The notes under the pieces: generated by a model
Told to the model about the DNA's origin: nothing
What the model saw: the letters and a program-made list of their open reading frames with translations, nothing else
Database searches by the model: none
In this document: one piece after another, positions 3,783 to 55,125 of the stretch
How the letters are laid out: the number at the start of each line of letters is the position of its first letter
Numbering within the stretch: position 1 is the stretch's first letter
NCBI GenBank assembly: GCA_033439295.1
Contig: JAVTLE010000021.1
Coordinates: forward strand, 2,976,009-3,040,008
Direction of reading: 5' to 3'
DNA length: 64,000 bases
Origin: Deuterostichococcus epilithicus
Lineage: Eukaryota > Chlorophyta > Trebouxiophyceae > Prasiolales > Stichococcaceae
Position numbers and translations under genes: made by a program

Positions 3783-6640
3783 ATGGCTCCAGCCAAGGCT
3801 CGATCAGCTTCAGAGAGAGTTGTGCAGTTTGGGAGGCCTGTAGCCTTGCTAGCCTGCAGTTTATTTGGCTTGCTGCTGGGCTATATCCTGTTCGGCGGCG
3901 ATGGCGCTCACTCTGGCGGTAACGGGCTGTCGACGATCAGGCAGGCCGCAGCAAAGTCCGTCCTGCCGTCGGCTGTCAATTTCGGCGGCGGCGGTACCCG
4001 CAGCACGCCAGGTAGCGCACCCAGCGACAACTACGGCACGATACTGGACAGAGTGCTGGCTCTGTCGGGCCTGACAGGTGAGTTCCAGCTGCCTGTTTGC
4101 TTGTCCTTCCGACTTGGCTCCACCTGCAGCGACATCATGGCAACCACGCGACGGATTCAAGCTTGGTGAAATCACTGGTGTTGCAGAGGTGGAAGTGCCG
4201 CAGGAAGAGGGAGCCCAGCATGGACAACCGGTGCGTGCAAGAGGCATCGGTGTCACTCGAGTCGGCACATCTATGCCCGCCCAAAGAGACGCGCAATAAC
4301 ACAAAGCCGGCAGCGACTGGAAACCGTGTGCCGTGAAACTTATATATGCAGCAACAGACTCTGACTGTGTGCTGATGCCCTAGGATGGCACTTTCAACAT
4401 CATCAAGCCGCTGAGCTTCCAGCGGATGACGTCCGAGCCGGACCCGCCGTTCTGCGCGCAGCAGTGGGCCTGCCACGGCGCAATCCCCAGGATCATGCAC
4501 CACATCTACCTAGGGGTGAGTGCCCTTCACAAAACGCCCGTTGCCATCGGCGAGTGCCCCATGCGCCTCGAAAACACAGCATCTGAGCTGACTGCACACG
4601 CATTTTACCTGGCGTCATGCGGGACACCACAGCTCAGAACCCAGACGGAGTCTCGGTATCACAGCTCTGAGCCAAAGTCTGCATCTGCCAGGGGCTGGAT
4701 AAGTACAGGGAGGACGTTGTGGCGGAGGCCCCGCCGTTCAGGCGGCAGTGGCGCGACACTTGCCGTGCCTTTTACCCCTCCTGGGACTTCAGGTTCTGGG
4801 ACGAGGTGCTGCAGTTTGCCGGCAAAATGCTGGCGAGGAGGAAGGAGTTTGATCTCAAAAATGGGCTTTGCATGATGCATGGATTTGCCTCTCATGGCAA
4901 TGCCCAACAAGCCTTGCAGGTCATCGGCGAGCACATCCGTGAGAGCTCCGTCAATGCTCGCTACAGGGTGAGGCGGAGCGACTGCTGAGCGACCGGTATC
5001 CCTGGCTGCTGCCGACCTGGCACGGCGCGCCGCACTGGGCCGTGCGCACGAATCTGCTCAAGTGCGTTCGCCGCCACTATTGAGCGGTTTCCAGCTCAGC
5101 CGTCCATCTATAACGCACCGCTTATGGCGTCAAGCCAACGAAGCATGTTATTTCACCTGGTCCAAAGTGTTCCCGCGGGATTGAAAACATTCACGTGGCC
5201 TGCCACTGGTATACATGGTGTCGCAGCGGCCACTGGCGCGTGTATCCTCTGCTGTGCAGGTATGTGCTCATGCATGCATACGGCGGGCTGTACCTGGACC
5301 TGGATGCGGAGTGCCTGCGCAATGCGGAGGAGGGGCTAGCGGGATTTGACCTCGTGCTGCAGCGCGAGCGGAGCGCAGACGCCGTGGGCACCGCCGTGTT
5401 GGCCAGCGCGCCCAAACTGCCGCTGGTGGGCTTCCTGTCACGTTCTAACCTCTTTCGCAGGGAACCTGAGACGCGGGACAGCACGCATGAATTTCCAGCC
5501 CCACTGGAGAGTGTCGCCGCTGGCCCTGTGCGCCAGTCGCAACAGCCGGTCGCAGCTGACTGCCCAGCAGCAGCGCAGCAACCCCTGCGCAGGGGCGCGG
5601 ATGGCCAGCCTTGTGTGTTGGCGACGGCTCTTGGGTGCACTGCACCTACTCGGCAAGGCACTGCCAACCGAACAGTGCATGCATACAACTTTGTACGGCT
5701 GCTCTTTTGTCTGCAGTGGGAGGCAGTACTGCGCAGCATCGCAGCGGCGCCGCCCGCAGCGCTGGATGGCCTTGCGCCAGCGAACGTTTCGGCGACGAGC
5801 GGCCCCACCCGCCTGTCGGTGGAGCTGCGGGCGGCCGTCCCAAGGGGGGCAGGGAGCCTGGTGGGCGAGCACACGGCGCCGGGCCTGGTGCGGATTTGTC
5901 CGTCCATCTGGACATCAGGATTTGCATCTTGTCCCCGTCCCCTTGGACATCAGGGTCTGCGTGTTCCATGTGGCCGGCCACAGCAGGGCCGCTCTCAGCA
6001 CATCCATCCCCAGCTACGATCTGGCGCCATGGAGAATCTGACGCCGGCATGCAGCGCCCCAAGCCGCACCACGCAACTCTGAGCCGGCAGCTGTCCATTT
6101 GCCCTGCTGTGGGCCACGCGTCGAGTATTAATACACAGCGCCCTCCTCCTCCGGCTGCGTGTTTGCTTCTCGTCACGTGCCCCAGTCAGACACAACATCT
6201 CATGGTGCAGGGGGCAGTGAAAGTGTACGACATCGGCACCTGGTTTCAGCCTTGCGCGGAATTCGACCAGGTGCTCTGCTCGAAGCATGCCTCTGACTGC
6301 ATTCGAACAATTTAAATGAGTCTCACAAAACAGTCAGCTGCAGGGTTCATGGCTGTGCTGCTGCGACGCGGCCTTCGCCTGCATTCAGCAGCCTTCGCCT
6401 GCATGCACATCGCATTGCATTGCTGCCGGAGCCCCTCCTCGCCTGCTCGTGACGTAGCCTCGCCAACAGGACTCTTCATATCACGTCCAGGAGTGTTTCA
6501 GGGACGTGGCCTGGAAGCGCTCCAGCGGCGAGGTGCCAGGCGCCGCATGGGCCGGGGTGCACCACTTTGCGGGAGCATGGAAGGAGCACACCGGTCGTGC
6601 CACCGCGGTGAGGCCGCGTCGGCAATTCGAGCTGCCCTGC
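3783..6640 (+). CDS. GT32-like glycosyltransferase, copy 1 (type II membrane)
   Basis: Probable Golgi type II glycosyltransferase of the OCH1/capsular-sugar (GT32, DXD) group. The chosen ATG (3783) is followed by a basic stretch and one hydrophobic anchor (about residues 20-40, VALLACSLFGLLLGYILF). Clear exons are 3783-4077, 4384-4515, 4692-4805, 4967-5061 and from 5260. They encode AIPRIMHHIYLG, FRRQWRDTCRAFYPSW, RYPWLLPTWHGAPHW and the catalytic AYGGLYLDLDAECLRN with its DXD metal site. Later pieces are WEAVLRSIAAAPP (5717 on), a GPT turn, VYDIGTWFQPC (about 6215-6265) and GVHHFAGAWKE (about 6560-6600), the usual C-terminal HH motif. The junction between exons 1 and 2 does not close in phase as drawn, so a small exon may be missing. 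The open frame continues past 6600 toward copy 2, so the two domains could be one bidomain protein; I keep them separate. Confidence 0.75.
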
Positions 6641-28354: not shown

Positions 28355-31300
28355 ATGGCGTCGTTCGCCAGCCTGGACACGCCGCGCTCCATGTGGAGCC
28401 GCGCGCCGTCGACGGCGCGGCGTGCCTCCGCGGCAGCGGCTGCGGCCTCGTATGACAGCGTCAACAGCGCGCCCAGTGAGGCGCTGCTGCTCCTGGTGCG
28501 CAACTTACTCAAACCCTAAATCCCAAACTTGTATCATGGGCCAGGCTGCTCATTGTCTTCGCATCAAATGCTGCATCGATTGGGTCCTGGCGCGCTGCTG
28601 TGGAGTGAGTGGCACAGCGTCGCAGGTCGCAGTCCACGCCAAGGCAGGCGGTCACTTGCAGCTGGAAAGAGGGTTGTCGGATGGTTCTGGCCGCCGCAAG
28701 TGCAGGTCGCGCAAGGCAACGTGCTGACGGCAGAGCTGCTGCGGCTGAGCGGCAGCCTGCCAGCGGGGCTGCGCGATGACGGCTCCCGCTTCGGCCCTGT
28801 GCTGCCCGACTTCAAGTATCTCAAGGAGCCGGCTGCCGCTGAGCGCCGCATTGAGGCCTCGCCGGCGCTGGTGGCCCTGGACGATGAGTTTCGGGAGGTG
28901 GGAAGGCGTTCAATTCCTGTCACAGATGTTCTTCTCATGTCTTCAGGTGCTTTGCGGCCATTGCACACCGCCTGCCGCAGCGTGACATGTGGCCGTCCGG
29001 GGGCACCGGCCGCTCGATGGCGCAGCCACAGGGAGACTGCGCTGTAGTGACTGCCGCCTGGTTCTGCTGCCAATGACACAGGCTTTCAACCCACCCCCTG
29101 GCCGCCGCAGAAGCACACGCCGCAGCTTGACGCGCTGCACTGGCCGCTGCGCAGTCGCGATGTCCCAAAAGAGCACACACGTTCCGGTCTGCCGCCCGGC
29201 GTAGTCAAGCCAGGCTCTGGATGGTCCCCAGTCATCCTGCTCCTCACACCGCTGCCTCATCTGGCCACCGCAGAAGCACATGGGCCTGCTGGAGGCCCTG
29301 TACCGACTGTACGAGCGCATTGTGGGCTACCATGCGGGGCTGACCGCCTTCCTGTGCCGCTTGCGGGATGGCGCCTACATCCAGGCCTCCGTGGAGAGCA
29401 TGCTGCTGGTGCGGCTGACTGCAGTTGCGGATGTGGATGAGCATTCGGGCACCTGTCTATGGATGTGGTCTCTTCCTTCGGGCCTCGAGGGCAAGCAGCT
29501 GATGTGGGGGAGGAGCTGCTGGCTCCAGGGGCTTCTGTTTGTTAGAGTCTCCGCCCGCTGGCGACAGGGACCCGAGGGCAAGCAGCTCATGGTGGAGGCG
29601 GTGGCGCTGCTGGGGGCGCTGCTGCTGCTGCTGGACCGCCGCATCCCGGGCCCTGCCCGGGAGCGCTCCGTGGTCGCCTACTTCCGCGCCCGCGGTGGCG
29701 CGCAGGCCGTGGGCCCCTCCATCAACTCCGTCATCGCGCTGACGGCGGGCACCGGCTTTTCGGTTTCGGCGCGCTGGCTGCCCTCGGGTGCGTTACCTTT
29801 ATGATGAACACGAATGCATCCTTGTGCTCACAATGACATGGCCAACACCTCGCCGGCTACCCTGAGCATGCTTGGCTGCGCGCTGCTGCGCTAACATTGA
29901 GAAGCATCCATTTCCACACTGCGCAGGCTACCCGGAAACCTACCTGGCACGGCTGCCAGTGCCGCGCGACGTGGTAGGCGCACTGCTGAGCCGCCTGCGC
30001 TCAGACGACATCTACTCCCAGATCCTGCACTACCCCTCCCCCGAGCACCGCTCCACCGCGCTCGCGCAGCAGGCGCATTTCCTTCTCTTGTTTCCTTTCG
30101 CATCAAAAGCAACGACACCATCGCGCTCCAGCGATGTCTACCCCCAGATGCTGCATCACCTCTCCCCCAAGCACTGATCCCGCCGCGCTCGCGCAGCAAA
30201 CGCGCTGTCAATGTTGCGGCCAGCGGCAGTGCCCGCTGCAGCTGCTCCGGCAGGGTGTCAGGCCGGTGTCGCGCCACTCGAACCAATCCGAATCCGAGCA
30301 GGCTGGATGTGGATGTACCCCCTTGATGACTGCCTTGGTGCAGCACTGTCGGGTGCTGCCGCATGCTGCGGCCCTTGCCTGCAACCATGCCTGCGGCGTG
30401 CTCGTGCAAACCGGACTGCCGAAGCCCCCATGTTGCCAAACAGCATGCGGCTGCTGGAGAAGTTGAAGGTCCTTGCCGCTGGCACAACCTCATGCATGCA
30501 AGGACGGCTAGAGCCTCAGCCATACCTTCAACAAAGACACTTGTCTGGCATCGACTGCTGACGTTCTTGATGAAAGCGGCGCAGCTGTCTGAGCTGCTGT
30601 TTGACACCCGAGGTGCAGGGCGGCAGCAGCGGTGTTCCATGTACTGCACAGCGGCCCATTGGATGACGTCTGGTGCACTCTCACGCAGGCGGCGCAGCTG
30701 TACGTGCTGCTGTTCAGCGCGCCCGAGGTGCTGCACAACGACGCGGCGCTCATGCGCGTGCTCGTCGACAAGCACTTCGTGGATAACTGGGTAGTGGCGT
30801 GGGCGCCTGGCGTCTGCGCCGACCTGGCCTGGGAGTGGGCCAACTACAAGGTGCACGTTGCAACAACCCTTTGTTGCAGAGCGCTTTGCGTCCTTCGTTG
30901 GATGCACCTCCTGGCTCGTCTGGTGCTGGGTCATGGGTTCGACGGCTCGTCGGAAACAGCGGTGCAGACGGCCGGGACGGCCCTGCGAGCGCTCGGCACC
31001 CTCAGCGCTCCTGCAGATGCTTCCTGGTCACTGCGATAAGCAGTGCCGGCTCAGCGTTCCCGGCTCAGCACCCCCAGCACAGGTGGGGAGGATGGCTCTA
31101 GATCGCGGCGCCCCTGCGGCGTGGCAATGCCAGTGTCCAATTATGGATAGAAGTCTTGTTATGTATGTAGATATAATCCTTCTAGAAGGTAATAACATTA
31201 TCACTCATAAATGCCAATCCCTACAGCTCTGTTTAACCCAGCGCTCAACGCCCGCAGAACTTGGTGTACGGACCGCTGTGGTCCGTTTGCGCAGGCGGCA

Positions 31301-34300
31301 CGGACGGCACAAAGCACTGAGGCGATGCAGGGGCACGCGGGCAGCTGATGGACATAAAGCATGACTCAGAATGCCGAGGTTCGAGTGCTGACGCAGGCGG
31401 CGCGGACGGCACTGGGCACGGCGGCGGCAGACTACGCTGCTTTTTAAAACCATCATATCTGGAAACTCTTATCAACTCTGGAGCTTTCATCTATACATCT
31501 CCCATTCTGGGATGTGTCGCAGCCTTCGAATCAGTGCTCTGTGCATGTTGCATGTGCAGGCGGCGCGGGCGGCGCTGGGCGCAGTAGCGACGCCGGCGCG
31601 TGCGGGCCAGCTGGCGGCAGACTATGCTGCCGCGCTGCCGGCGCTGTCTCGCCAGCTGGGCGCCTTCCTGGTGGAGGGACTCGTGCGCGAGGAGTACGTC
31701 TTGCAGGTGCCTCTCAGCTCTGGAAACCCGTGTAGGGGTACTTCTGAAACCAAGCCAAGTCGGGCGCCTGCGCAGTGGGAGCGCCGGTATGTTAGGCCAC
31801 GGCCAGCCGGCACGCAACCGGGATGGCCCAACTTGCAGGGGTTGGCTGCAGGAGCCATTTTGGTATTTACCAAGTGACGTCAGCGATTTGCTGTGCAATT
31901 GTCTGGCAGGCCAGCAGAGTTGGAGACCTGTCAGATGCAAAGTGTCCTGAAAGAATGCGCATGCCAGCGTCAGCCCTGTCGCAGCGCGCCATGCTGCAGG
32001 ACAGACGAAGCATTGCCGTCAGGCAACAGACGTCTGTCCTGCCTTGCGGCGGAAGTGCTAGCCAATCTGATCGCATGGCAAAGACCGCATGTGCGCACTG
32101 ACCCTTCACCTGGATGAGCCTTCTGAGGTCTCGACTTGGCACGTACCATCACAGGCATGGCTCACCCGCTCCATGCAGCTCCACAGAGTCCAACCGTTTC
32201 CAGAGTCGGGCGGCAACACCAGATCTCTGACAGAGAACCCACCAGCTGAGACCTCCCCTGAACACGGTCCTACATGTGCCGCAGAACACGGAGGAGGTGC
32301 TGGACTGCCTGCGGGAGTGTTTATCATCATTGAATGTAGAAAACACGTACAGAAAAAACATGTGCCGCAGAACACGGAGGAGGTGCTGGACTGCCTGCGC
32401 AGCGCCAACGTCGCGGCGCGGTGGCTCATGCTGCACGCGACCGCGCGGCACCCGCGGCTAGGCCCCGCGGTGGCGGCGACCGCGCCGCGCCCCACCGCCA
32501 TCGTCTCCTTCGTCATGGACACCGCGCTGCTGGAGTTTGAGGTGGGGGGACACGTCATTCTGCTTACCTGTTGCTGAGATTCCTAGTAATAGCAGGTGCG
32601 CGGCCCCCGTCGTGTCTCCATCGTCATGGACACCGCACTGCTGGAGTTTGAGGTGTGGAGACTCATCACACTGGTCTCACCCGGTCGCCTGCTGCAGCTG
32701 CTGCTTGTGTGACTTGGCAGCAGGCGCGCAGCCGCCATTGTCGCCTTCGGTATGGATACCGCACTGCAGGAACCTGAGGTGGGACGATAAGTGCTTGAGT
32801 TCCAGTTTGTATTGTGGGCAATGAGCTAAGCCGCAAAGAAAGACAGCCGGCAGGGTGTGCCGGAAAGCTGAGCTCTGGTCTCCGCACAGCTGTGTGCGCC
32901 CCAGTGGAGGGGCTTGCACACCCTGGGCAGCATGCGCTGCGATTATGTTTACCTCAAGCACTGCAGGTCTAGCCACTTCCTCCTCCCTGGCAGTGTTGGC
33001 CCGAACCACCTGTGCGCAGCCCGAGCGCCTCTCAGGATGTCAATTGGAGTGCTACATTGCGCCATTTTGTGCCCTCAAAAGGGCAAAATGGCGTAGGTGG
33101 ACACTAAGGATTGACATTCGTCGACAAAGCGGTACCAACGTATCACTTGACGATAATCACAGCAACCAGAGTATCTGTTCAAACAATCTGTCGGAAAACG
33201 AATGAATGTTATGACGGCAGGTCAAGCGCGTGTACAGCGAGCTGCTGGACACGCGGGAGGAGCGGTGGACGCAGGCGCGCGGCGGCGTTGCAGACACGCT
33301 GACGGAGCTGTCGGAGTTCTACAGCAGCGGCGGCCCCCTGTCGCGGCGGCTGGCGGACGAGAGCCTCGCGCACTGGTTCGCGCACCTGGCCGACCAGGTG
33401 TGCTGCAGGGTCAAACTATGTGTGCTATGCAGGATCAAATTCCTTCTCAACATGCCTGGTTTACATTTTCCTTGAAGCACTGCTGCCGCAGAAAGACATG
33501 AATAACATATGACAAAGCATCAGCGTTATGAAGCCACCCACAACAGAGCGCCGCGGATGCGCCAGGTGGAGCACCTGGTGCTGGGCAAGGACGCGGGGCG
33601 GAGGGTGCGCTCCCTGGCCGCGGCGCTCGACGAGGCGGAGGGCCACCACGCCGTGGAGGCGTCTGCACAGGCGCTACAGCACCTGGCGGCAGCGCGAGCG
33701 GGGCTGGCCACCATGGTCCGCGTTGACCACGTCAGGTCAGTGCCTTCTGTTGCCTGTTCTTGGCGGCGGCAGGAGGGCTGTGCCGGGCTCGGATGAGTGA
33801 CACTGCACATGTGTCACACTGCATGTGTGTGCGTTGCCCCCGCTGCTTTCGCCCCCCGCGCCTTTCCCCGACGCCTGCTGACCCGCCCTGCTGCGCCGGC
33901 CGTGGTCGGGGCCGCTGCAGGCTGGAGGAGCGTGCCTGTGCTGTCAGGCGCGGCGGGGATGTGCTGTCGATGGCTGCTTGTAGCGCCAACCTCCAGACCC
34001 ACTCTGCTAGAGATGGTGATGCATTGGCTGCGCTCTGTCGATACAGGGAGGAGGTGCTGGCGACGCTGGGCGCGGTGTCAGACTTCTCCTTCTCCTGGGG
34101 CCTCATGGACACCTACACAGCAGCCCTGCAGAACCAGGTGCGGCGCATGTCTCCAAACCCCTAAAGCTAATATCCGCATGGTACCGTGGGTATCGCAGCC
34201 ATGTGCCTGCCGTGCACGCGGTGGCGACGCCTCCGTCAATCGACGGGCATGACTCGACATGTGCCCCTAGTGCACCTGTGCAGAGTCGCTGCAGCCTGAT

Positions 34301-37300
34301 GCCGAGACACACAGAGCTGCTGCACAGAATGCTCTCCGAGCCAGTCGCCAAGCATGGAGACGGGTCCGGCACTCCCCCGGCTGGGTGGGCAGATGCCGCA
34401 CTGGTGTCTGCATTGTTGATGAAGCAGATATCTGCCCACCCACGGGGATGTGTCTCACTTGAATACACCACCAGGGCATGGGTGTTCAGAATCCGCAAAA
34501 AAAAAACAGGCTGCGGACTGCCCAGGCGCTGCACCTCTGAGCGTCCTTGTCATGGTATGGCACGTCCAAGGCGCCACCGCGCTGAGCGCGGAGCGGACAT
34601 TCCTACATCCTCATCAAAAACAACAACCATCTTTGCACCGGGTCCCGCAGGTGCGCAGCGACCCGCGGGCGGTGCTGAAGCTGCGCTGCGTGTTCCTGAA
34701 GCTGCGCTCGGGGCTGGAGCTGCCGCTGCTGCGGGTGGCGCAGGCCGCCGACCCTGCCGCGCCTGCCCTGACTCGCTACTACTCCTCTGCGCTGCTCGCC
34801 TACGTGCGCAAGGTCCTGGAGGTGCGGCATCCACCTTTCAAATCAAGCAAAGAAATCACTCTTGATCATTCACTTTGTCAATGTTGTTTCCCTCTTGTGA
34901 CGTGCGCGAGGCCCTGAATGCGCGGCATCGTCACGGTCGAAAGTGTCCGACACTCTTGCGTGCTGCGTCGCCGCCGGCCTTCCGCACTGCTGCGCTTCAA
35001 CGCTGCTTGCCGATGTGCGCAAGGTCCTGGGGGTGAAGCTTGCAAATCGGAAGCTTCTCTTGTTCCAGCCCCTCTGACTGGAAAACAGACGCCAGAGGGT
35101 TGCAGCGCCGGAAGGCGCTCACAGGGCACCATGACCTCCATCTAAGTCACACTCCACTGCCGCCTCCGGCTCAGCTCCAGCTGACCATCAGAGCAAAGCA
35201 AAAGTGGATGCCGGCGACGGCGCTGCCAAGAGGCTGCACGACAGCAATAGGGAAAGCCGCTCCCTGTTGCTGTCGGCGGCTCTCTCGACTACGACATTGT
35301 TGGCATACACGCTTGTGTTCCGGAGACTCGGCTGTGGTCGAGCCGGAGGCGGCAACGGAGGGTGACACTGAGAATGCGCCCGCCCTGCTGCATGCCCTGC
35401 GACAGCTCTGCGGGCGCCAAAATGGCGCCCAAGGCACTCTCTGCTGCCGACTCGTTCGAAGCGCCACTCTCCACTCCGACGGTGCTCTGCTTGACACGCA
35501 GGCCCGCTGCACGTGCTGCTCCGCCAGACTAGTCTCTTGCTGCAGGTGGCGCCGGTGACGGGCACGAAAGCTGGTGGACTGCACAGTGGCGCTGCAGTCT
35601 CCCTGCGAAGGTTACCAGAAAGCTCCCCAAACATGCAAGGAGCCTTGGGCTCCCTTGATTCCTGCTTCTTGGGGAAGCCAATGTCTTCCAATGGCGGTCT
35701 CCTTCAGGTGGTGCCGGCGACCGTCATGGAGCTGGTGGATCGGGTCGTGGCGCTGCGCGCGGGCGGGTTGACGCCGCCGCCCGGGCGGCTGCCGGCTGCG
35801 GAGCTCAGGGCCCACGCGCGGCTGCCGGCGCGGGCGGAGGTTGCGGCGCTAACGCGGCGCGTCGCTGCCCTTGCTCAGGGCATCCTGGCGATGGAGAGGT
35901 GCACGCGGCCTGCCGTCCGACTTGTGCTGCGGCCCCTGGACGACTGTACCATGATCATGCTGGATGCACCCTGCGCCGTGTGGCTGCGAGACACCTCGAA
36001 TGCGCCGCACCGCAGGGGACATCCGTGGCATGAGGCATCGACAGCTCTGATCTCTGGTATCTGATCTCTGCTCAGATGAGAGCAGACTTCTTCTACTCTT
36101 GAAGGCCTCAGAGCCAAGTCGGAGTCCCCACCCTGGCACCATCGACAAATCGTCGACAGATGGTGGTGGCCCCGCAGGACCTTCATGGGCGTCATCGAGA
36201 TCGACCCGGTGCAGCTGCTGGAGGACGGCCTGCGCTCGGGCGTCGCCCGCCGCATCGCCGGCGCGCTCGCGGCGCACCTGCAGTTTGCGTCGCACCAGGG
36301 GCCGCCCCTGGCGGTCGGAAGCAGGAAGTCGGACGGCCGGCCGCCGTCGCTGTGGTCCAGCCTTGGCAGCGGCGGCGGTGGCGGCGGCGAGAAGCAGCTG
36401 CCCGGCAGGTACGCATGAGCCTGCTGTGAGATCTGGATCTTGTGGCGAACAGCCTGGCGCCTCCACCATCAGTCAGCTGCGCTCATCTACAACTCATGCC
36501 CTTCCGCCCAGCAGCCATCACCCATGGTGTGTTCCGGTGTCAGGGCGCGCTGCTGATTGTGGTTGCTGACTCTTCGGCGCAAAAGGAAGCTGAAACAACT
36601 GCCTTTTCGCACCCACGCAGGGGCGAGCTGCTGCGGCGGCTGCAGCTGCTGGGCGCCGCGCTGGCGGGTTTCCGTGCCGGCTTCGAGGCCTGCCAGGACT
36701 ACGCAGCCGTGCGCGGGCTGCGCCTCTGGCATCAGGAGTTTGGGCTGATAGTCAGGTGCGCCGGCGAGCCCTGCGAGCCGCCTGTTGGTCGTGCGCCACA
36801 TTCGCTAATTGCAGCAAAAGCGGGCCGTCTGCGTGTGCTGTTGCTGCTGATAGACACGGAGAGCGCTGGCAGCATGGCGTCAGCACCGGGTAATCAGCAA
36901 CATTGCTTGCTTGTGACGCCTGATCGGCATCGCATCAATTACCGGCACTCGCCTGTGTGGGCTGCTTACATCTGCATCCAGAGCAGGTTGTAGCATCTGC
37001 GTCCAGGTCGGCTCAGTAGGGTGTTTCACAAAATGGCTCAGACGCATCAAGCGGCAACAGTTATTCAACATGCTGTACCCGGAACTGAGCTTTCCGCCAC
37101 GATACAGCGCCTGTTTGAACCGCAAAGCAGCATGAGGATGCCCCTTCGAGACATCGCCGGAGTCGCTTGGGTTTGAAAGGCTGAAGCACCTGCTCTACTG
37201 GGAGTTGTCTCGTTAATCTGCACGCTGGTGCATGCTTGCGAGACGCATCTGCAGCCTCGATGCTGCGAAAATCTCCTCCTGTCTGGTCAAGGTTCATCAG

Positions 37301-42452: not shown

Positions 42453-43200
42453 ATGCGCCAGCTCAACCTGGGAGCACCGCACAGGTGAGCTGCTGGGACC
42501 GCGTCGGCTTCGGTTGCTGCGCTTGTTGACGCTGGTCGCACAATGCTGATTTAATTCCTGCCAGGTTGTGCAGCGACCAGTGCATGGTGAGTGCAGGGTG
42601 TTGGGCCACGGCGTTGCCGCCGGGCAGGTGGTGCCGCCACAGCGCGGCCTCGCCACGTCGATCAGAAGCGTCCAGCACCCCGTCGCAGTCAGATCCAGCC
42701 TTTCGTGCCCAGCGCAAGCATTGGCGGAACCCGCAGGTGCCGCAGCAGCCGCAGCGCAACCACCAACCGCTGGGATTCTGGCGCTCAAGGAGTGGGCAGT
42801 GACGTGCGCCGCGCTGGGCACCGGGCAGCAGACGGTGGGCAGTCGACGGCCAGTCCTTTTGCTTTACCTGTGCAGGATGTACTTTGAGCCTGTCAGCCAC
42901 CAGGCTGTCTGGATTTGCAGCGCACAAGCCTTCGAGAACACATCGTGTACACACCCTCATGGTCCATATTGCTGCTGGGAGAAGTATAAAAGGCGTGCTG
43001 TGTCTCAAATTCAAACCTGAAGCCACACTGCCGATCACCAGGTGGTGCTGCGGAAGGGCGGCATCGACGAGCCGGCCTTCGCGCTGCCAGCCGCCCGCTT
43101 CCTGCTGTTTCCCACCTCCTTCCATTCCGGAGCGGATCTGGTCAAGCCCCTCGCCGCCACCCGCTACTCAGAGGTGCGCCCGAGAGGCAAAATTCCTTGG

Positions 43201-43266
<66 letters not shown>

Positions 43267-44293
43267 ATGCTGCCGCCTGGCCATTCCTTCCACTCTCGCG
43301 CTAACCTGGTCGAGCCCCTCACCGCCGCCGCCTTTGGAAGTTGCGTTCAGAAGATTGCTGTTTCCACTGTCTGCCGCCCTGTTTAAAGGGTTCATGCCTC
43401 CGGTCACCCACCCAGGGATTTGAAAGCCATGCATGGCTTGTGGAGCTCTTCTTATTGCTGGCACTTAGACTGCACGCGCACCAGGGCAGAAGCTGATGAT
43501 AATGCCGGCGTCCCCGGCCCCTGTGTGCGTCGCGCACGCTGGATTGCCACCCGCAAGGTCTCAGCGCCGGCGCTGGGCACACCCCATGCCGCAGGAGCTA
43601 CAGGCAGAGCCCAATTAGCAAGCTGCTGGTCTTCAGCGTGGGGTGGGAGGACACCTGCGCCTGAGCTGGTAGGCATGTGCCGCAGGAGTTGCAGGCAGAG
43701 CCCAAGGAACAGTCAGTGCTGAGCGTCGGCGTGGCGGCGGAGGTGACTGGCGCGTGGACCACAGCCGATCCGGGGGTGGTGGCTGCGCTGAACGCGCTCC
43801 ATGTGTGGACGCCGCAGTATCTAGAGAAGAGGTGGGTCGATGGCGGGGCGTCTGGAATTGCTGTGGGGGAGCGGCACAGGCTGGCTGCTGTAGCGCCACG
43901 CGGCGCAGCCTGCCATAACCGAATGCCTTGCATATGAGCACATCGATGCTGCTTCTTGCTTTTCTTGTGGTACGAAGTCCCTTGCAACAAAAGGAATTTA
44001 GTGAAGGACAACAGGCTGCTCAATGTTTGCAAAGGATGCGATGGCGGCAGAAGCAGCCCATCACGGTGTTGGAGCTGCACTGCCGGCGGCTGGCGGTACC
44101 GCTGACACTGCAGAACGCCCCACAACTTTGGGGCTGCTTCAGCTGGGTGACGCTACCGGCACCGGAGGGGGCGGACTTTGAAATGCTGTGGGCGGACGGC
44201 ACGGCTGCGCTGACGGACGTGGACTACATGCAGCAGCAGTCGGCTTGCAGGCAGGCTCTGGAGCAGCTTGATGGAGTCAGCTGTTGGAAGTGA
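42453..44293 (+). CDS. DUF1802 family protein, probably plastid-targeted
   Basis: Six exons close in phase to 260 residues: 42453-42484, 42565-42586, 42643-42834, 43042-43173, 43686-43831 and 44035-44293 (TGA). Family motifs are ILALKEWAVTCAALGTGQQT, VVLRKGGIDEPAF, FLLFPTSFHSGADL, AAEVTGAWTTADP, LNALHVWTPQYLEKR, RMRWRQKQPITVLELHC and LAVPLTLQNAPQLWGCFSW. DUF1802 occurs in cyanobacteria and photosynthetic eukaryotes; its biochemical role is not known to me. The first 50 or so residues are rich in Ser, Ala, Gln and Arg with few acidic residues, as in a transit peptide. That and the cyanobacterial link suggest the chloroplast. The first two tiny exons are my choice by phase and are the least certain part. 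The intron after 43173 contains a (CTG)21 tract and copies of the exon on both sides of it. Confidence 0.88.
43100..43335 (+). repeat. Exon echo of the DUF1802 SFHSGADLVKP exon end
   Basis: The exon end at 43118-43165 is repeated, diverged, at about 43279-43332 in the next intron: the echo would read SFHSRANLVEPLTA against SFHSGADLVKPLAA in the exon. The (CTG)21 tract lies between the two copies. Confidence 0.85.
43204..43266 (+). repeat. (CTG)21 triplet tract in intron
   Basis: Twenty-one uninterrupted CTG units, then ATG CTG. The tract is in the DUF1802 intron 31 bp after the donor. On the other strand it is (CAG)21. Confidence 0.97.
43575..43740 (+). repeat. Exon echo ahead of the DUF1802 ELQAEPKE exon
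   Basis: The acceptor and start of the exon at 43679-43740 (GCCGCAGGAGTTGCAGGCAG, continuing AGCCCAA) has a copy at about 43588-43645 (GCCGCAGGAGCTACAGGCAG, continuing AGCCCAA). The following GTGCTGAGCGT part is also echoed as CTGGTCTTCAGCGT. The upstream copy meets a stop (TAG) soon after. Confidence 0.85.
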
Positions 44294-50130: not shown

Positions 50131-50707
50131 AGCCGCTGACGATCTCAATCCTCATACGCCACTCAGAGGGTCCTGAGTCCAATGATCAACCGTGGTCCGG
50201 CTGACAGCGGAAGTGCAGTGTCGGGAACTGGTGAGGAGGGATGGACGCTGCTCACCGCTGTGAGGCTCGTCCTGCCTGCGTGCCACCATCGAACGCCAGT
50301 GCTGATTGACTGGAGTGGGAGCTTGTCGTACGCCAGCCCTGCGTCGTGCTTGCTGACGGCGAGATCTTCTTCTGTAAAAACTGCAATAGTTTCACACAGC
50401 TTTGCACCGCCAAACGTCCTTCCATACAGGTCCTCCGCAAACGAACCCTTTCGCTTTATGCTCTCACCCTCCAGCCTGAACATCAATCCATGATACCTGC
50501 TGTGCTTCCTCAATATCAGGTGACAACAGGTGCGCTGCCTCAGAACTGCCACGATAACCTATATTACACGGATGACAGCTGTGCTGCCGCCCAAACAGAG
50601 CACAGTGTCACCTGGCAACGATGTCATGCGATGCGCTCAAATTTTTTGCGAGCCACCAGAGGCTCTGTGTCCGTGCCCTCTGAGGACACTCTATGGCCGC
50701 TCTCACT
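50131..50707. other. Convergent intergenic spacer
   Basis: Lies between the ends of the plastid-protein gene (+) and the ATPase gene (-). No gene or repeat is recognised. Confidence 0.45.
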
Positions 50708-53700
50708 TCATTGCGACTCTGTCGCGGGTGCCTTACGGACCCGCACCTTCACCCGTTTCCTGCTGCCGCTGCCGCCAGCGGCGCCAGCGCCGCCGCTGCG
50801 GTGATCCGGTAGCCTCACTTCCTCCCAGTCGGAGTTCCCCTCGCTCGCCTCGCCGCTGCCGTCTGCCCTGTGCTCGCCGCTGTCGCTTTTGCCGCCATCA
50901 GTGCCCGTCTCGCCGCCGCCATCCGCAACCCCGCTGCCGTGTGCTGCGCCACCACTGCCTGCTACTCCGCCGGCGCCGCCTGCCGCCTTGCTCCCGCTCT
51001 CTGACCTATCGCTGCCAGGACCCGCTGCCTCGCGGCCGTTTCCGCCCCGGTGTGCTGCCTCCTCTGCTGCGTCGTGCTGGCTGCCCATGCCGGTGCTGCT
51101 GTGGCGGCCCATGACTCCACTGGCTGCCTCTGGCGACGAGTCGTTGCGAGCCGACTCTGACGCTGCGCCCTGGGCAGTGGCGCCGGCCACTCCAGCGGCG
51201 CGCGTGCCGTTGCGCCAGCCCCGCGGCCGGATGTGACTGCTGCCATTTGCCAGATACTGCGCATACAGCGCCGATGGCTTCGAACCGAACATGACCTCCT
51301 GCAGACAAGCACCGTGGCATGTTGAGGAGTGCCAGCCCAGATGTGGGCAGTGCATGCAAGACTGGCTGTCCAACGCCGCAGCCCATCTGCTGTCAGTCTC
51401 ACGCCCATGCGGGAACGGCTGAGCAAACCACAGGACGGCGCCGCGGCCGCCTCCCAGCCACTGCTGCCTTCAGTGTCACCAGCCTAGACAGGCATCTGCT
51501 CTGTGAGCCGCCCCCTGCAACATGCAATCCACAAAAAAATCCGAACCCAAACCCACCTGGTGCGGGTAGTGGCGGACGAAAACGCGCGAGGCCAGCAGCG
51601 CCTTCTGGTGTCCCGGCTGCGGCACCGCGGCGGTCCACGCCGAGACGCTGATGCCCGCCCACTCGTCCCGCCCGCCGCCCGCCGCCAGCAGCTCCTTGAT
51701 GGCCGCCAGGCCGCCGTCACGCCGGGCGCCCTTGCACATGTGGCAGGAGGTTCTCGAGGTTAGGGTTTAGGGTTTGCCGTGGCAGCCCTGGGACGGACTT
51801 CGTGTAGGCGCCGGCGGTGCTGCCAGCTGGCATCTTGGAATGCGACAGCTGGCCATGTCACATCGACGGAAGCATGCACAGACCAGAACGTGAGCTACGC
51901 CGCTGTGCATTTGAAAGTGTTGGGTGAGGGCCGCTGAAGGACGTTGTCAGGGGAGCTCACCTTATCCAGCAAGCCCGCCACCTGGCACCCAGCATAATTG
52001 ATAATCAGTGCACAGCAAGCGTCCAGGACCAGCAATCACTTGCGGCAAGAGAACCAAAACATCAGCTGAGTAACGCCAAATCATCCATTAGCTAAGTAAT
52101 CCCAACCATTTGGTACCTTGAACTCGTCGGCTGCCGCCTCTACCACCGAGTGCAGCGCATCTGCGGGCAGCAGACCATGTATGAGCCAGATCGTGCAGCC
52201 CCCGCTCTTTGGCAACAACACATTATGCAACGCCTGCACCATTCACCAGCCCGCTGGTGTGAGGCAGCATGCAAGGGTGCGACGGCGGCTATGCGTCACG
52301 AGTGAGCACCGCGTGACACTCTGCAGGGTCTGTGCCAGGCATCTCCCGAACCCGCTGAAACGGACAGCCTCGCTGGGATGTGGTGCCTGCGCATGCGCCA
52401 TGCAATCGCTGTGCAAACGCAGCGCCTGAGGTCGCACCATGGCCTGGGCGGGCTGGGAGTTTAGAGTTTAGGCCCACCGTGGCAGTTGATGCCCATGTCG
52501 GCGATGCTGGTGGCCACGTGCGACAGCAGCCCGATGCGGCCGCCCGCGACGCCGTACACCGCCGCCGCGTCTGCCGGCGACACCCCGCGTCCTGTTAGGT
52601 ACTTCAGGGCCTCGTCTTCCGTCACGTCGTCCACCGTCACAAAGCCGCTGACGTTGGCGCGCGACCAGCTGGATCGGCCTGCAGAGCGAGTAGCGATACC
52701 CCTTTCAGGGTTTAGCCTGCCGGCACGGAGCCGGTGACATCGGCGCGCGGCCGACCGGAGCCGCCCCTTGCGCAGGGGCCGAGCCTTGACGTTCCACGGT
52801 CCTGCCGAGGCTGCTGTGCGCAGAGCAAGGAGTTCCTCGATCGTGCCGTGAGCTTGCGGCCCACATTGCATAGGAAGAGGCGACAGGGCACAGCAGCACG
52901 CAAGCCTACCGCGTCAGTCAGACGCGCCCGAGGGCACGCACAGCGCACAGGACACCGGAAGACACATCCCACTGCCGCAGCTGCTCGCATAGGCCTCGAA
53001 AGTAGCACAGGGTCGATAGTTTGATCTGTCTTGGTGTAGGCTTCAGGCGCATGAGACTGCGCGCAGGACTGAGCCACAGCAGGCTTGGGGGGCAGGACCG
53101 CACGCTTCATCTGGGACAGCGCCGGGCCGTCGGACAGCACGAACACGACGCGCAGCAGGCCCGCGTTGGACCATGCCTTGGCATGCCCCTGCAGCTCTTC
53201 CAGCAGCCCCGGCTGCTTCTCCGCCAGCCTGCGGAGCAGTCGGGCGGGAACCAAGGCATCAGAGTAGGGCCAAGGACCACGACTCAGGGGGATGATGTCA
53301 AGGGGCACCGCGCAGCCTGCAGCCGCTCCAGCAGCCCCGGCTGCTGTGGCACCAGCCTGCAGCAGGGGGCGGGAAGCGAGGTTCGGGGGCTGTTACCGCC
53401 CACAAGCCTCGCGAGGGAAACATACGCCGTCGCACGGTCCTTGGTGCGTTCCACCGAAGCCCTNGCTGCCCNGCCAAGNATGCAGCNGTGCGATNGCTTA
53501 GAACCCGCCCCCCTCAACCCCCCTCATCAAACCAAAACTCCAGGCCCGCCGCCTGTTGCCCGGGCGGCAAGGCCNACATGTTGTGAAACCTTGTCCCTGC
53601 TTAGATCTAGCTCACCTGTCGACATCATCAAAAACCAGCACCACCGGCCGTCGCGTGCGCAGCTGGTATGCGCGAGCCCCCCTGACCAGCGCGTCGATCG

Positions 53701-55125
53701 CGGTGTCAATCTGGTCCTTGCACTCGCCGCTGCCACCACCCGGGAATACTGCCTGCGCAGGGGACAACAACACTCCATGCCCTGCGTACTTCCTGCTCGC
53801 TCGACTCGCAGCTGTGGAGAGAGGCGGCAAAGCGTCCAGGACCAGAGTGCAAAACTGCAAGCGTGGATGCTGCACTGTGGCTTTTCCACCACTGTTTCGT
53901 GAGCGTACCTTGACCAGGTTGCTTTGCACCATGTTGATCACGTTGAGCGCCCCACCCTGGACTGGAAAGCACAGCCTGCCATCACGATGAGCGCTGCTGG
54001 CTGTCCTTCGTGCTCAGGGGGGGCACAATTGGCATTGGGAGTGGATTGTGTCGGCGTGTCTGCTGCCATGCAGAGTCGCGCACATGCATGACTCACAATC
54101 GATGGCCTGCGCCAGCTCCGAGCCGAACATATCAGGCACGGTAATCTGGACATAAATGACGCCCGCGCCGACCTGTAAGCGCCCGAAAGGTGCCACATTT
54201 TCGTTTGAGCATGTGCATGCGACCGGAGCAGAAACAGCAGCCTTGTAGCAGGCAAGGTGATCAACACTCTTCGACAGTCTTGCACACACCACAGTGGTGG
54301 GCTCACACGCAGCAGCAGTGGCACACACGTGGCGGGACACACCTCCTCACATGCAAGGCGCACAATGTGCGTCTTGCCGCTGCAGGGAGCAGAAAGTCTC
54401 GTAATTGCATGGTCATCGCATGGCTCGTTACACAGTGCTCCACGTGCCTGGCTGCCGCTCAGTCCAATCGTCAAGACGTTCCACCAGAGTGCACATAACA
54501 TGACCTGAAAGGGGGACTCAAGTTGTAGTAGTGACACGTCGCAGAGGGGCAATTCTCCTGCCAGTGTGTTGGCAAGAACTTCAAGGTGAGGAAGGAAAGG
54601 CAACGACTCAACGAGTTGGGGGCGCCGAGGATGCAGTAGTATGCATCGCTTGGCAGGTCGTCGCCGGGCTGCAGCAACCGCGAGACGCGCTTCATGAGGT
54701 CCGGCCGCCGCTGGAAGTGGCGGGCCTGCGTCCCCCGCGACACCAGCTGTGCAGATGCCGAGCAGAAGCCCCCCGAAATGCGCCTGCGTGGCCCGCTCGT
54801 ATAATATGAACAGGTGTTGCAGGACGACCGAAGCGACGTTGGAGGAGGATGGCGCAGGGAGACGCGGGCCATGCGATGATCCGCAACACAGGCATGCTCG
54901 CTCTGGGATCCATTCCAAATGGCCGTGTCCGTGCAAATGCGCAGTGTAACAATTGTGGTCTTGCAATCCTCACTGATAGACGCGGTGGCTGTTCCACCGG
55001 GTGCAAGCCCATGCGGAGAGGCCCTGAGCGCCAACGACCCCGCCGCCACCGACCACGATGCGCTTGAGCCAGCGCTGGATGTCGGCGCTGCTGCTATCGA
55101 AGATTTTCTGGAAGTTCATCGCCAT
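50708..55125 (-). CDS. P-loop ATPase (AAA+/STAND-like) with Gly/Ser-rich C-tail
   Basis: The start ATG at 55125 gives MAMNFQKIFDSSSADIQRWL and a glycine-rich turn. A later exon (about 54760-54617) has RPDLMKRVSRLLQPGDDLPS, then DAYYCILGAPNS, which splices in phase to GKTHIVRLACEE. This makes the Walker A GAPNSGKT. Then come GVIYVQITVPDMFGSELAQA, DQIDTAIDALVRGARAYQLR and Walker B PVVLVFDDVDR (about 53655-53620). ALVPARLLRRLAEKQPGLLE and LLRVVFVLSDGPALSQMK follow (a sensor-like strand). The C-terminal helical part is VTVDDVTEDEALKYLTGRG, DAAAVYGVAGGRIGLLSH and AAIKELLAAGGGRDEW. The last exon (51300-50708) is a tail of nearly 200 residues of Gly, Ser and Ala ending in basic KRVKVRVRKA. The order fits an AAA+/STAND NTPase; its target is unknown. 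Five isolated N bases lie in an intron at about 53464-53575. Confidence 0.78.
51758..51776 (-). repeat. Interstitial telomere-like motif in intron
   Basis: About two and a half TTTAGGG-type units on the + strand, thus CCCTAAA on the coding strand. It lies roughly 30-40 nt before the acceptor of the exon coding RRDGGLAAIKELL. Confidence 0.8.
52640..52765 (-). repeat. Exon echo in ATPase gene (VSGF exon)
   Basis: The exon edge at 52641-52680 (AAGCCGCTGACGTTGGCGCG, continuing CGACC) has a diverged copy at about 52731-52762 (AGCCGGTGACATCGGCGCGC, continuing GGCCGACCGGA) in the intron on its 5' side. Confidence 0.75.
53184..53373 (-). repeat. Exon echo in ATPase gene (QPGLLEEL exon)
   Basis: The exon block at 53187-53252 (with CCAGCAGCCCCGGCTGCT) recurs at about 53314-53372 with the same core and flanks. 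Translated, the copy reads VPQQPGLLERLQ against LAEKQPGLLEELQ in the exon. Period is about 120-125 bp. Confidence 0.88.

Follow-up and report, generated by a model that had tools for sequence, protein, structure and literature searches.

Exon-edge echoes in the introns of WASHC5 and other genes of the alga Deuterostichococcus epilithicus are probably remnants of an old wave of local tandem duplications

Do second copies of exon edges inside introns mark the birth of introns, duplicated exons or something else? The question is raised by a 64,000-nucleotide stretch of the Deuterostichococcus epilithicus genome (assembly GCA_033439295.1, contig JAVTLE010000021.1, positions 2,976,009 to 3,040,008; hereafter the window), which carries the WASHC5 (strumpellin) gene. 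A first-pass annotation had claimed that at least six introns of this gene hold copies of the start or end of the adjacent exon, one of them exact, and that, tandem duplication being a proposed route to new introns, the gene would be a dense natural series with copies of different ages. Our analysis confirms that the exon-edge copies, here called echoes, are real. They are best read as fossils of duplications that lengthened introns, not as newly made introns, and they probably go back to a wave of local tandem duplications that was old and genome-wide, with units mostly of approximately 80-140 nt.

The identity of the gene is based on ten exon pieces that are collinear with the Pfam family Strumpellin (PF10266). 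Nine of the ten pieces scored above the curated cut-off, and the remaining one reached 24.8 against 25. Self-comparison revealed 12 copies of adjacent exon edges, spread over seven of the 14 tested introns (Table 1). For the null, 500 order-1 Markov shuffles were prepared for each intron, giving 28 edge-to-intron tests and a p floor of 0.002. Copy similarity was above that of the shuffles, as had been proposed: nine of the 28 tests gave p<=0.004, and one further test gave 0.036. No edge test below 0.05 was obtained for introns 1, 4, 9, 10, 11, 13 and 14. The exon 3 echo sits 5′ of the range originally given for the copies (29485-35750). The exact copy, an echo of the exon 8 start, consists of 13 intron and 29 exon nucleotides, and the 44-nt spacer between it and the true copy (32314-32357) resembles neither flank and was found once in a genome search. 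The near echo of the exon 12 end is the weakest edge copy of the gene but for the far exon 7 copy, and the echo of the exon 5 end carries a 1-nt insertion and an in-frame TGA. The claim of duplications that span splice junctions, with copies of unequal divergence, is supported. WASHC5 intron length tracks echo number (Spearman 0.75, p=0.002, 14 introns).

To place the gene in its genome, 25 stretches of 10 kb were scanned together with the window, that is, 314 kb out of the 46.79-Mb genome (21 contigs). The genome gave 39 matches to chlorophyll a/b-binding proteins, as suits a green alga. A first survey, in which 16 contigs were each sampled by one 10-kb stretch at an arbitrary position, had shown similar pairs in most of the stretches. 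The scan was a blastn self-comparison (spacing 25-320 nt, at least 30 bits), with five shuffles that preserve local composition as the null. It detected 72 direct repeat pairs, whereas the shuffles gave 2, 1, 0, 3 and 2; seven of the 25 stretches held no pair. Within 320 nt only one inverted pair was found against the 72 direct ones. The spacing was 80-139 nt in 45 of the 72 pairs, and never below 60 nt. Since old duplications shorter than 60 nt were barely detectable in simulation, the method itself contributes to this floor, and minimum intron length was abandoned as its cause for the same reason. The drop above 140 nt is not explained by detection.

The positions of the pairs were compared with exons predicted by a gene finder, which was trained on WASHC5 and then retrained on its own predictions. 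The finder recovers the WASHC5 exons, and all ten fragments tested with Pfam matched families above cut-off (self-chosen, from 21 echo-bearing models). Predicted exon edges hold 51 of the 72 pairs, with the second copy on the intron side: 33 at acceptors, 13 at donors, and five whose second copy is also predicted to be exonic. Removal of these five leaves 46 clean echoes, which alone were used in the codon, splice-retention and simulation comparisons below. At an earlier stage with 62 pairs, 43 were at edges against 12.5 expected by random placement, and in five loci outside the training of the gene finder, eight of ten pairs were at edges. Neither copy lies in a predicted exon in eight of the 72 pairs, some of which belong to echo arrays.

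The echoes are restricted to the edges of the exons next to their own intron. At a score of at least 40, 20 of 495 introns matched their own downstream exon start and 10 of 495 their own upstream exon end. Own edges therefore gave 30 hits in 990 tests, against none in 13,186 other tests (non-adjacent exons, 0/12,592; wrong edge of the adjacent exon, 0/594). When the threshold was lowered to 32, own edges gave 33/495 and 15/495, non-adjacent exons 112/12,592 and wrong edges 7/594. The distance from the echo to the far splice site was median-like. Twelve of the 51 edge pairs fall in the 8.5 kb of WASHC5, which is approximately 11 times the density of the remaining sample; the comparison is post hoc, because the gene was picked for standing out. 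Echoes are nevertheless no peculiarity of WASHC5, since they recur throughout the sample.

Table 1. Positions of WASHC5, its exon-edge echoes and further echoes in the window
Feature	Position	Strand	Counterpart	Identity and remarks	p against shuffles
WASHC5 (strumpellin)	28355..36755	+		first 15 exons analysed, further exons predicted downstream	
Exon 3 start echo, intron 2	29098..29140	+	true copy 29261-29303	77% over 43 nt	0.004
Exon 4 start echo, intron 3	29480..29522	+	true copy 29567-29613	79%; AG lost	0.002
Exon 5 end echo, intron 5	30123..30198	+	true copy 29997-30071	80% over 76 nt	0.002
Exon 6 start echo, intron 5	30576..30616	+	true copy 30689-30731	79%	0.002
Exon 7 start far echo, intron 6	31288..31347	+	true copy 31553-31613	72%	
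Exon 7 start near echo, intron 6	31392..31440	+	true copy 31556-31630	92% over 25 nt, plus second block	0.002 (intron)
Exon 8 start exact echo, intron 7	32272..32313	+	true copy 32358-32399	exact over 42 nt	0.002
Exon 8 end first echo with donor, intron 8	32614..32673	+	true copy 32503-32562	87% over 60 nt	0.002
Exon 8 end second echo, intron 8	32740..32799	+		72%	
Exon 12 end near echo, intron 12	34900..34929	+	true copy 34802-34831	83% over 30 nt	
Exon 12 end far echo, intron 12	35001..35035	+	true copy 34790-34824	89%	0.002 (intron)
Exon 13 start echo, intron 12	35540..35595	+	true copy 35702-35756	75%	0.002
Predicted exon start echo, downstream of WASHC5	43587..43663	+	copy 43678-43756	73%	
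Predicted exon start echo, gene 50564-55125	52720..52765	-	true copy 52634-52679	74%	
Predicted exon start echo, gene 50564-55125	53316..53381	-	true copy 53188-53256	80%	

Some further features were observed in these genes. WASHC5 exon 5 has a GC donor (CAG/GC at 30072/30073); among the introns of the gene finder in the 314-kb sample, 15 were GC-AG and 739 GT-AG. An AT-rich patch at 31130-31230 in WASHC5 intron 6, in an otherwise GC-rich genome, was present as a single copy in a genome search. A GCT trinucleotide repeat of approximately 25 copies lies within a predicted gene at 43200-43273 of the window. In a Mur-ligase-like gene of another sampled stretch (L013, 8827-9182), an exon-start array of three copies retains intron homology between the copies.

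Could the echoes be functional, as duplicated or mutually exclusive exons or as maintained decoy splice sites? The splice dinucleotide is kept in 33 of the 46 clean echoes, AG in 22 of 33 acceptor echoes and GT or GC in 11 of 13 donor echoes, which would suit such a function. This count also corrects the original statement that every copy includes the splice site: most of them do, but not all. The AG retention is, by simple arithmetic, close to the value of approximately 0.7 that the observed divergence would give in the absence of selection. Furthermore, exon and echo differed at 15.9% of first, 15.9% of second and 20.3% of third codon positions, and 16 of the 19 alignments with gaps had gap lengths that are not divisible by three. 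Since the decay is nearly even over the codon positions and the gaps break the frame, the echoes do not behave as exons. The pattern is the one to be expected from non-coding copies next to a conserved exon, and maintenance by function is very improbable. Decoy sites, which had been predicted from the start, are nevertheless present in the sequence. The mean splice-site score of the echoes is below that of the true sites, yet by the scoring matrix of the gene finder itself 10 of 46 exceed their true site. Therefore, some echo sites could act as splicing decoys.

The proposal that the echoes record intron births was also examined. The idea has a precedent: in potato, a new intron arose from a duplication across an exon-intron boundary (PMC4974935), and the configuration there is similar to that in D. 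epilithicus. In the AGGT (Rogers-type) model of intron birth, the intron start should resemble the downstream exon start and the intron end the upstream exon end. We compared this signature in 532 predicted introns with that in re-paired introns, and no excess was found, barring one strong outlier (L027, 5772-5889). The outlier belongs to a pyruvate-decarboxylase-like gene (5529-6286 of that stretch) in which one exon start occurs three times, an array from which the gene finder made an extra intron. When the protein was compared with the Pfam family TPP_enzyme_M, it scored 68.6 bits as an echo array and 64.4 bits with the extra intron. By this small margin, the extra intron is more likely to be an error of the gene finder. 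Moreover, the exons on either side of the echo-bearing introns are otherwise intact. Thus, the series of intron births that had been proposed was not supported, and birth by tandem duplication, whether by the AGGT model or its boundary-crossing variant, is an extremely improbable origin of the echoes.

The origin that we consider probable is duplication within the gene structure that already existed. A duplication over an acceptor would give the order intron-AG-X-intron-AG-X, where X is the start of the exon. If splicing continues at the exon-proximal AG, the mRNA would be unaltered, and the distal AG with its X would turn into decaying intron. A duplication across a donor would be the mirror image. 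On this model the exon-proximal site is presumably the one in use, and the duplicated units would have been contiguous. Selection would conserve the exonic copy, so that pairs crossing an edge would outlast those lying only in introns. At the DNA level, the source could be staggered breaks that were filled in and then closed by end joining. Outside WASHC5, the median length of introns with an echo was 371 nt (n=31) against 235 nt for those without (n=496), a difference of approximately 135 nt.

How the pairs came to be located at exon edges was explored by simulation. Of 250 intron-only duplications simulated at each age, 249, 211, 34 and 2 were detected at 0.05, 0.15, 0.25 and 0.35 substitutions per site, respectively. 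The location of the pairs would thus be accounted for, because intron-only duplications of the latter age are almost undetectable while selection would maintain the exonic copy. The ages of the events were assessed by the homology that remains on the intron side. For this comparison, 36 events were used, namely the clean echoes without pairs of spacing >190 nt or with <15 exon columns. Ten of the 36 (28%) had intron-side homology. A simulated old wave at 0.35 substitutions per site, with the detection step included, gave intron homology in 29-36% (34-41% in broader versions), divergence of 0.17-0.20 against 0.16 observed, and alignment lengths of 51-58 nt against 44 nt observed. A younger wave at 0.25 gave intron homology in 48-57%; with ages distributed uniformly from zero upward, the share was 69-72%. 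Since the simulation with the detection step approximates the observed values only for an old wave, an old wave of contiguous duplications is favoured, whose simulated age would be approximately 0.3-0.4 substitutions per site. A continuing process is disfavoured by the same simulations, and also because young intron-only duplications would be detectable, yet just the eight non-exonic pairs were found. With a simulated detectability of 13-36%, the 46 clean echoes would imply, as a rough estimate, 130-350 edge-crossing duplications per 314 kb.

Several results weigh against this interpretation. When the divergence of the exon part was simply applied to the intron part, intron homology was expected in approximately 23-32 of the 36 events, and not in the ten observed. 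Events of low divergence (<=0.12) are in excess: they make up 13 of the 36, but 16-23% of those simulated for an old wave. Among these 13, intron homology was present in only four, whereas the simulations gave 48-68%. The exact 42-nt copy with its unrelated 44-nt spacer is much too similar for such an age and is a misfit for an old contiguous duplication. The ratio of acceptor to donor echoes (33:13, p=0.0045) is not predicted by the duplication model. In addition, the ages and indel ratios of the simulations were picked after the data had been seen.

These points bear on a different origin, in which an exon edge of approximately 30-75 nt, with a few intron nucleotides, is copied into the intron and separated from its source by unrelated filler, by break repair or a splicing-linked process that leaves the intron flank uncopied. 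When alignments were anchored on the junction, identity was raised on both sides but chiefly on the exon side: it was 0.80 at the exon start, 0.43 at -12 to -7, and down to background by about -20. Intron homology was absent in 26 of the 36 events, and young-looking exon copies without it are too many. The spacer of the exact copy, whose sole match in the genome is itself, fits the same process. However, old contiguous duplications look much alike once the detection bias is simulated, and about a quarter of the events do carry intron homology. Introns with an echo are longer by approximately the whole spacing, not merely by the copied edge, and five of 34 spacers exceeded the 99th percentile of the null in direct-strand comparison with nearby sequence, one of them strongly. 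Because of the exact copy, the low-divergence residue and the acceptor excess, exon-edge-specific copying still deserves some weight, but we regard it as unlikely. If it did operate, the lineage would have, or would have had, a junction-bounded copying process with filler, by which introns grow approximately 100 nt per step, and the exact copy in WASHC5 intron 7 would be recent; this scenario seems to us equally doubtful.

The exact copy and the low exon divergence without intron homology would also be explained if old tandem duplications had later been refreshed by short gene conversion between the edge and its echo. Runs of matches were no longer than in shuffled mismatch orders (p<0.05 in 1 of 39 alignments, combined p=0.64), and this explanation is rather improbable.

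The spacers themselves were listed for 35 pairs with spacing up to 190 nt and gaps of at least 10 nt. Two WASHC5 spacers of this list were searched genome-wide, and each was found only at its own place; their origin as mobile elements or introners was rejected. Hairpin stems in the spacers were no longer than in intron controls. On the inverted strand, matches of 34 spacers to nearby sequence were near the null, with only one clearly above it. Hairpins and local templating were accordingly rejected as the origin of the spacers. Capture of proximal DNA in either orientation did not match the 72 direct pairs and one inverted pair.

The lengthening of introns is usually inferred indirectly, whereas here the exon copy serves as a fixed reference by which each event is recognisable and roughly datable. 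The echoes thus would form a countable record of intron growth through duplication. They also offer duplicated splice sites of natural origin, where the exon-proximal one of the two appears to prevail. Caution is needed in annotation: our self-trained gene finder called echoes as small exons at several places, and other gene finders may make the same mistake.

Internal gene duplication is reportedly the subject of a study by Gao and Lynch. Open-access literature, consulted as excerpts (including PMC3446292, PMC12636532, PMC11797067 and PMC6972661), yielded no genome-wide set of exon-edge echoes, in an alga or elsewhere. In the RdRp gene of potato, a boundary-crossing tandem duplication created a new intron via a cryptic donor (PMC4974935). 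As in our echoes, the 3′ side of an intron and the 5′ side of the next exon were duplicated directly, and splice signals were doubled. That case is a single gene with a new intron, whereas dozens of events are found here, apparently absorbed in existing introns and mostly heavily decayed. That introns can be gained by tandem duplication is accepted (PMC3443670), and this route likewise involves a small duplication that touches splice signals; there the unit is exonic and a new intron results, whereas the AGGT signature is without excess in our introns. In Drosophila, novel intron positions arose through sliding or tandem duplication (PMC2891723). Duplication alters the exon-intron structure there as well, but those cases are new positions with proto-splice sites. 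Repair-mediated capture of proximal DNA also leaves short local duplicates with intervening sequence (PMC2671141). Its donor-acceptor distances peak near 1.2 kb and an exon copy in opposite orientation has been described, unlike our spacing of mostly 80-140 nt and 72 direct pairs to one inverted; that both orientations define this process is our own reading of the paper. Finally, short tandem duplications arise at staggered breaks through CST-Pol alpha-primase in mouse cells (PMC8355091). These are direct, short and local like the echoes, and such breaks are a possible mutational source in D. epilithicus.

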